A stretch of DNA of 37,158 nucleotides from Gemmatimonadota bacterium (GTDB lineage Bacteria; Gemmatimonadota; Gemmatimonadetes; Longimicrobiales; Gaopeijiaceae): the NCBI GenBank assembly GCA_029863525.1, contig JAOTVL010000019.1:1-37158 (forward strand), read 5' to 3'. Under the pieces are notes generated by a model. It worked only from the letters and a program-made list of their open reading frames with translations, searched no databases and was not told the origin of the DNA. The position numbers and the translations under genes are program-made. Below, piece by piece: positions 3,685-30,853 of the stretch; within the stretch, counting starts at the first letter, position 1; each line of letters starts with the position of its first letter.

Positions 3685-5910
<2,226 letters not shown>

Positions 5911-30113: not shown

Positions 30114-30164
30114 GCAACAAAATCTCGGCGTTGACCGCAGCCGCCGTGGCGCCCTGCGCCCCTC

Positions 30165-30410
30165 CCAAACGGCGAGATTTTTCGCATTTCTGACGCCGAC
30201 TTTCCGCAGTGACCCGCGAACGTCCGCGAGTGAAATCATCTGTTTCTCCCGTCACCGATCGTACTGCCTGAGAAACAAATGACGTCGATGTAAATCACTA
30301 TATGGAAGTATTTTACAGCGTATTTCGGAATTGATGGACGTTTGTTTTGTGAAGCCTTGCCCGAGGGGTTGGACCACCTTATCTATCCTTCGCGTTTCGG
30401 ATGCGGCTCA
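30165..30410. other. AT-rich non-coding island with an inverted repeat
   Basis: After lipB, base composition drops sharply: by hand count 31 of 80 bases in 30281-30360 are G or C (39%), against a clearly GC-rich surround. No frame looks coding. TGTTTCTC (30241-30248) and GAGAAACA (30270-30277) form a perfect 8-bp inverted repeat with a 21-nt loop. The stretch could hold promoters or a protein-binding region, or mark an inserted segment. Confidence 0.5.
30357..30385 (+). promoter_or_regulatory. Possible promoter reading into the structured region
   Basis: TTGCCC (30357-30362), 17 bp, TATCTA (30380-30385). If used, transcription would start about 30392, some 27 nt before the first hairpin at 30419. 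Both hexamers are only partial matches. Confidence 0.22.
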
Positions 30411-30418
30411 TCGAGATC

Positions 30419-30757
30419 GATAACGTTGGTTATCCCTCAGATGAATCCGAAAGGTGGGTCTTCGGACGCGACGGCGTAGCGAAGACGAGGTGACCCGGAA
30501 CTTGGGAATGTCCGGGAAGCCCGACGGGGGAGGTCGCTGGCCCCCGCCGAAAGAGCCCTGAGAGCTCGGGGCGACCTCCGGTCGCGGACCGCGTGACAAA
30601 ACGGAGGAAGGAGGAATGGCCCAGCCGCCTTCACGAAGGCGGACCCAAGCAGGGCCTGAGAATCCGCCAGCGCACGTAGTACCGAGCGAGGCTCGTGAGC
30701 TTCGCGAGGACTGCAAGAGAGGCGGCCTGAGTTGCAGCTTGCTGCGGCTTGGGCCGC
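30419..30757. ncRNA. Candidate structured RNA or repeat element: eight nested stem-loops
   Basis: Within 340 nt, perfect arms pair locally: 30419-30424 with 30429-30434 (6 bp); 30458-30464 with 30480-30486 (7 bp, inner ACGC/GCGT); 30494-30499 with 30511-30516 (6); 30529-30537 with 30571-30579 (9, inner CCCC/GGGG and GAGC/GCTC); 30579-30583 with 30587-30591 (5); 30618-30622 with 30652-30656 (5, enclosing 30625-30631 with 30636-30642, 7 bp); 30686-30689 with 30702-30705 (enclosing GCTC/GAGC); 30722-30727 with 30752-30757 (6, enclosing GCAGC/GCTGC). No conserved protein is readable in any frame. It does not match RNase P RNA, tmRNA, SRP RNA or a group II domain V by eye. Strand is undecided: plus places it after lipB, minus after rnhA. 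Confidence 0.45.
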
Positions 30758-30853
30758 TTCGCTTTTGTGGATACCCCGTGCCTCGCCTCCATCCCGCCGG
30801 GCGTGTCACTCACTGTTGGGGCGACGCCCGCTCGAGCGCGGCCCCGCACCCGC

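Follow-up and report, generated by a model that had tools for sequence, protein, structure and literature searches.

The stretch of DNA analysed here (the window; 37,158 nt, contig JAOTVL010000019.1 of the Gemmatimonadota bacterium assembly GCA_029863525.1) carries, between lipB and rnhA, what is almost certainly a new family of free-standing structured RNA. By its sequence matches the RNA recurs within a bacterial group found in soil and water, mostly as a single copy per genome. Since the genes next to it change between lineages, the RNA very likely acts in trans; the genes of RNase P RNA and other trans-acting RNAs change neighbours likewise. Taken as a whole, the description of a free-standing noncoding RNA gene that occurs across the class, acts in trans and would take part in a ribonucleoprotein is considered probable.

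The gap without genes extends over 740 nt, from the stop codon of lipB (30113) to that of rnhA (30854), and the products of the two flanking genes belong to the LplA-B_cat (PF21948) and RNase_H (PF00075) Pfam families, respectively. At 30121-30182, right after lipB, a hairpin followed by a T-run was noticed by eye and is probably the lipB terminator. A dense array of stem-loops had been predicted in this gap and was confirmed by the comparison with shuffled sequences proposed at the same time, in which the + strand of 30400-30780 folded at -189.5 kcal/mol against -157.1 +/- 6.6 kcal/mol for 100 dinucleotide shuffles (z -4.91), none of the 100 reaching the native value. For the - strand, z was -2.43 and 2 of 100 shuffles reached the native fold. 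The array had been placed at 30419-30757; the arms named for it are present as written, but the true feature is longer and covers about 30391-30766 plus the promoter. One of its helices, 30722-30727/30752-30757, proved to be part of a terminator hairpin and is fully paired in all 20 rows that make up the window's close group. Another, the 9-bp helix 30529-30537/30571-30579, is perfect in the window and looks like a chance match, because it is fully paired in only 1 of 38 rows and excludes both P4 and the pseudoknot described below. The prediction that no frame encodes a protein also held. Whichever frame is taken, the RNA is open in at most 10 of 37 homologues (one row containing N was left out), and the frame breaks make coding unlikely; the homologue lengths cover all three classes modulo 3 (n=37), and a protein-coding region was rejected on both grounds.

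A blastn search with the region found matches at E <= 0.01 in 14 of 59 genomes, including the window's own; five of these matches were short and weak, two of which (G018 and G031) were confirmed by a model of the 5' part through P4, designated R1. In the window's family, R1 gave a single match in each of 53 of 121 genomes. Eighty lipB loci were taken from public genomes, and a profile search of these together with L015 and L019 located the RNA in 30 of 82 loci, the window not being counted. The order lipB-RNA-rnhA-carA repeats among the listed loci that extend far enough. The spacing between lipB and rnhA was measured at 81 loci, with rnhA missing in 12 and the spacing usable in 69: it is 470-903 nt where the RNA is present (26 loci), and -58 to 265 nt (39 loci) or 841-1344 nt (4 loci) where it is absent. 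The four long RNA-less gaps (L062, L066, L069 and L077) gave no significant match to R1 or to R2, a model of the 3' part from P4. By eye, the gap of L062 (4693-5519) holds ORFs resembling an antitoxin/PIN-like pair, and that of L069 (4849-5979) a serine-hydrolase-like ORF. RNA-less L024 has a terminator-like hairpin between lipB and rnhA (4940-5000; nhmmer E 0.012), likely a deletion scar.

The RNA was delimited on the + strand at 30391-30766, with the 5' end inferred from the promoter and the 3' end from the terminator, which gives a length of about 375 nt in the window and a range of about 300-390 nt in the family; a block at 30380-30765 is conserved in sequence comparison. Upstream on the same strand, a -35 box TTGCCC (30357-30362), reading TTGC or TTGA in 28 of 29 aligned loci and TTGT in L038, is separated by a 17-nt spacer from a -10 box TATCTA (30380-30385), and the RNA would be transcribed from this promoter-like site. 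Comparable sites within 70 nt upstream of the RNA were present at 19 of 35 loci in the family (mean 2.6, maximum 7 in mononucleotide shuffles) and at 10 of 18 loci class-wide (mean 0.6, maximum 4). The latter set represents 18 of 20 class-wide upstream regions, L292 and L309 being absent, L301 too short and L305 entered twice; no promoter-like site was found upstream in L296, L303 and L310. Lining up 34 upstream regions (L041, L071, L118 and L138-L140 omitted) disclosed a dyad-like element, roughly gTAA-N4-TT-N6-ACA-N5-TTAC-N2-CGT, at 30290-30321 (+), about 36-67 nt 5' of the -35 box. Its consensus is only partly shared, over much of the family, and it may be a regulator site.

At the 3' end, fold and letters place an intrinsic terminator at 30719-30766 (+), with a 19-bp stem (30719-30737/30742-30760) and a T-run at 30763-30766. 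A test for a hairpin and T-run after the conserved CCAGCG took in only the 37 rows that do not belong to the close group; it was passed by 29 loci and failed by 8. In the close group, the P8 hairpin stands between CCAGCG and the terminator.

All helices are formed by the + strand. The P1 domain (30391-30456), derived from fold and covariation, comprises P1 (30391-30400/30447-30456) and, within it, P1b (30408-30412/30440-30444) and P1c (30419-30424/30429-30434) with a GUUG loop. It is followed by P2 (30458-30486), made of 30458-30464/30480-30486 and an inner helix 30466-30469/30474-30477, and by P3 (30490-30520), made of 30494-30499/30511-30516 plus 30490-30491/30519-30520, whose loop contains a CUUGG conserved in the close group. 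P4 (30523-30548) pairs 30523-30530 with 30541-30548 and carries the loop AGGUCGCUGG. The P5 hairpin (30555-30572; 30555-30561/30566-30572) was taken from the fold; its register varies in the alignment and its covariation was left unscored. P6 (30577-30605), from fold and covariation comparisons, has 30581-30586/30592-30597 around the loop GACCG and an outer helix 30577-30580/30602-30605. The P7 domain (30610-30665) contains P7a (30610-30612/30663-30665), P7b (30618-30622/30652-30656), which forms in the window and is weak in relatives, and P7c (30625-30631/30636-30642). The P8 hairpin (30676-30714), again from the fold, exposes the apical loop CGUG at 30694-30697. Three sequence groups, each aligned and folded separately, agreed on the P1 domain and on P2-P5, and in part on P6 and P7.

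Compensatory changes in homologues, which the original prediction had named as a check, were found. Across 38 distinct sequences, 72 proposed pairs in 11 helices account for 80 double compensatory changes counted on the tree, compared with a mean of 5.7 and a maximum of 12 in 200 simulations on the same tree that preserve per-branch substitutions and column rates. This 38-row alignment and the first full alignment omit L041, cut by a contig end, and L071, a partial match; near-identical rows were omitted by choice from the model alignments A1 (27 rows), A2 (33) and A4 (36). Most events fall in P2 (25, simulated mean 1.2, with both sides changing in 11 of 11 pairs), P7c (13) and P3 (12, simulated mean 1.1), followed by P1 and P1b (7 each) and P6 (6), with one event each in P4, P7b and P1ext, the last of which is a weak helix. 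In the family alignment the register of P4 slips; class-wide, the same helix shows both-side changes in 6 of 8 pairs, and 90.3 % of its cells are paired. P7b is poorly supported, being canonical in 46 % of the 38-row alignment and 62 % in the close group; class-wide, 69 % of cells are paired for P7a/b and 68 % for P7c. Both sides change in 30 of 38 predicted pairs of the 5' part, in 17 of 22 of the 3' part and in 34 of 38 class-wide. In three alignments each of the five measures exceeded every one of 500 shuffles, which ignore relatedness, and the slid-partner controls were beaten as well. An R-scape-like test (APC-corrected G-test with a tree-based null), which is underpowered, gave E 0.18 for the best pair and no pair below 0.05. 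The RNA thus has its own promoter, as read from the letters, its own terminator and about eight conserved helices with covariation, features of a large free-standing structured noncoding RNA, and the comparison supports the earlier suggestion of a new structured RNA.

Two long-range contacts were recognised. In the pseudoknot PK1, CGCUGG in the P4 loop (30535-30540, +) pairs with CCAGCG (30667-30672, +), as indicated by covariation: class-wide, both sides change in 5 of 6 pairs and 98.6 % of cells are paired, with substitutions that vary by lineage (L310, L305, L095, L306, L138/L140 and L034). The second contact is a kiss between the P7c loop CACG (30632-30635, +) and the P8 loop. All 20 close-group rows can form its four pairs, 19 of them with identical letters, and L040 has CACA/UGUG where the other close-group rows have CACG/CGUG. 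The P7c loop meets the P8 loop in the close group and the terminator hairpin in many other rows. Summed over 55 rows, kiss complementarity was 248, against 199.3 +/- 6.3 with a maximum of 224 in 5000 partner-swap permutations, a test that ignores relatedness. The kiss is kept through altered letters in L296, L301, L308 and L130. A score of 3 or less was obtained in 14 of the 55 rows, and five low scorers are close-group rows that were misfolded singly, yet are paired in the alignment. The match is absent in nine of the 55 rows (L298, L302, L303, one L305 copy, L307, L310, L018, L091 and L133); in L011, L067, L095 and the second L305 copy the score arises from a different loop. These comparisons support a predicted structure in which both contacts join the 3' half into a single fold.

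In a sample of 395 genomes of the phylum, R1 matched 39 and R2 matched 63, the latter extending to other families of the class. Within 20 class-wide loci (L291-L310), 19 of 21 R2 matches had an overlapping full-length R1 match at the 5' end (E 1e-9 to 0.004), the exceptions being L292, cut by a contig end, and L309, which matched R1 only in P4; both models contain the P4 hairpin, so that adjacent matches are not fully independent. A class-wide model, R3, matched at least 111 of the 395 genomes, with one match in 99 of the 111, so that the count of copies per genome, also proposed earlier, came out at mostly one. When R3 was applied to 40 genomes, which were hand-picked to include known carriers and hence do not give a prevalence, 26 were matched: 17 once, eight twice and one (G049) four times; these scans scored 7-24 candidates per genome, so that the counts are lower bounds. 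Four of five single-contig genomes have a match (G034 weakly, E 9e-4), the fifth, G017, having none. Many genomes, including the well-assembled G017, G036 and G044, gave no R3 match, so either the RNA is not present everywhere or it has diverged too far for the model. The window's own genome has one copy, and G037 has two copies 1.5 kb apart. At L305 (6058-7758), two copies 1.5 kb apart flank a 276-aa ORF without a Pfam match.

The genes nearest to the RNA differ between loci and include PEBP and SRAP, FAA hydrolase, AICARFT with M28 peptidase, diacylglycerol kinase, HMG-CoA reductase, a sigma factor, NadA, among other genes. The RNA keeps its position within genus g130, before diacylglycerol kinase in L297 and L299 (by Pfam) and in L300 (by eye). 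A simple gene caller supplied 30 neighbour proteins from 16 of the 20 loci for Pfam, 4 of which had no match; they include no IscB, TnpB or transposase family and no shared guide nuclease, and one neighbour in L301 is a PD-(D/E)XK protein. Two otherwise unrelated copies (L293, 4194-5477; L296, 3577-4575) each have a gene for an M28 peptidase nearby, which may be chance, and in L313 a tRNA gene (1224-1309, -) lies about 300 bases or less from one class-wide copy of the RNA.

Several of the readings first offered for the element fare poorly against this distribution. A cis-acting element of lipB or rnhA, be it a leader, a riboswitch or a 3' UTR, would fit the fixed place between these two genes in the window's family, but it is highly improbable: lipB is upstream, with its end 278 nt away from the RNA, rnhA is antisense, a promoter-like site and a terminator belong to the RNA itself, its neighbours are different elsewhere, and lipB and rnhA remain adjacent where the RNA is absent. 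Nor does the RNA consistently precede one conserved gene in the same direction, as a cis leader or riboswitch would. The different neighbours and the mostly single match per genome argue against both a lipB/rnhA element and an interspersed repeat, and the latter was dropped because the window's genome has a single copy. A mobile-element relic, such as an orphan guide RNA, could account for a locus that differs between families and for the two nearby copies in G037; it is no more credible than the cis element, given that no Rfam family matched, that the 30 neighbour proteins of 16 loci contain no shared transposase or guide nuclease, and that blastn of two copies against plasmid records and of the window copy against phage records found nothing. 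A stable place within lineages and the covariation point instead to vertical inheritance under selection. A viral pattern scan returned 46 stretches, six of them with R3 matches at E <= 0.1 (best 0.039), which resemble chance, and no lipB was found in viral contigs; a plasmid or phage origin was rejected on the blastn and R3 results. The trans-acting RNA, also among the readings first offered, is the one that the comparison supports.

As to how such an RNA would act, the proposal is that of a compactly folded, trans-acting molecule that would most probably form the RNA core of a ribonucleoprotein and would not serve to regulate a neighbouring gene; the ribonucleoprotein core is the best guess, held at somewhat less than an even chance. 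A large trans-acting regulator whose exposed loops would base-pair with mRNAs, its fold being only a scaffold, would likewise come with a promoter-like site and a terminator of its own, as is the case for many sRNAs, and could vary in presence between relatives; it seems rather unlikely, as the best-conserved loops pair internally in PK1 and the kiss, no obvious conserved single-stranded seed is seen, and the conserved core is large. Less likely still is a putative ribozyme with its active site in the pseudoknotted core, to which the two long-range contacts and near-invariant loop bases would be suited, but which must be set against the lack of a match to any Rfam family, ribozymes included, and the several lineages without the RNA. 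A replacement for 6S RNA that binds RNA polymerase in this class appears very unlikely. The 6S model RF00013 matched neither here nor in any of 14 genomes tested, an absence that is weak because the same search detects 6S in no more than 5 of the 14 genomes used as controls (four controls being archaea); 6S RNA is a rod with a central bubble, unlike the multi-branched and pseudoknotted new RNA, and related genomes lack the new RNA.

Beyond the ribonucleoprotein core, a more tentative reading is that of an ancestral RNA machine of Gemmatimonadetes, a putative ribozyme or housekeeping-like RNP core built on the pseudoknot of P4 loop and 3' strand and on the kiss, and repeatedly lost, in which the terminator hairpin would be a structural part of the kiss outside the close group. 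To our knowledge, few large structured RNAs combine strong covariation with the lack of any known relative, and RNAs of this kind have proved to be ribozymes, cores of RNPs or RNA assemblies of an unusual type. The present RNA spans a class of common environmental bacteria, and its predicted fold with two long-range contacts is testable. Carriers and RNA-less relatives with an otherwise unchanged lipB-rnhA site offer natural deletion controls, one RNA-less relative keeping an apparent leftover terminator.

No known relative of the RNA was found by sequence or covariance model within the phylum genomes and Rfam. The cmscan search suggested by the original prediction, run with 4227 Rfam families, gave no match at curated cut-offs for the window or for other loci of the RNA (sets of 12 and 15 loci). 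Under relaxed settings two microRNA models matched the terminator hairpin (E 1.9 and 2.7), which is meaningless, and class-wide loci gave weak, irrelevant matches to tRNA, a plastid UTR model and a microRNA model. ARAGORN found neither a tmRNA nor a tRNA in the window. The earlier statement that the element is not RNase P RNA, tmRNA or SRP RNA stands, as none of them matched it and each sits elsewhere in the carriers tested. Class A RNase P RNA is of similar length, is single-copy and shifts between neighbourhoods; it was rejected since RF00010 did not match and matched separately in the carriers G003, G006, G035, G037 and G039. No RNase P RNA was found in the window's own genome (83 % complete), nor in G000, G004, G005, G008 and G009 of the window's genus, four of which carry the new RNA; G003 and G006 have both RNAs, so incomplete assemblies are the likely reason. 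The tmRNA, also of similar length and with pseudoknots, was rejected likewise, with neither tRNA-like ends and a tag frame nor an RF00023 match here and with separate matches above cut-off in the carriers G003, G005, G006, G008, G009 and others; in the window's own genome tmRNA matches were below cut-off only. SRP RNA and 6S RNA are free-standing, like the new RNA. The former was rejected because RF00169 did not match here and had matches elsewhere in all 14 genomes tested, over cut-off in 9, the window's own included. Bacterial Y RNA is also free-standing and is bound by the protein Ro60; this partner was rejected, the Ro60 (TROVE) family occurring in 3 of 40 genomes, of which G097 and G315 have the RNA and G036 does not.

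Searches of the open-licence literature yielded no description of such an RNA in Gemmatimonadota. OLE, ROOL and GOLLD have Rfam models. PMC9331176 describes searches with known riboswitch models only. In two other reports, OLE, ROOL and GOLLD are large, ornate bacterial noncoding RNAs with many conserved helices, OLE being described from Gram-positive bacteria (PMC12286853, PMC11332333). The new RNA is shorter than OLE (about 600 nt) and, unlike these three, has no Rfam match; like them, it is large and has many conserved helices.
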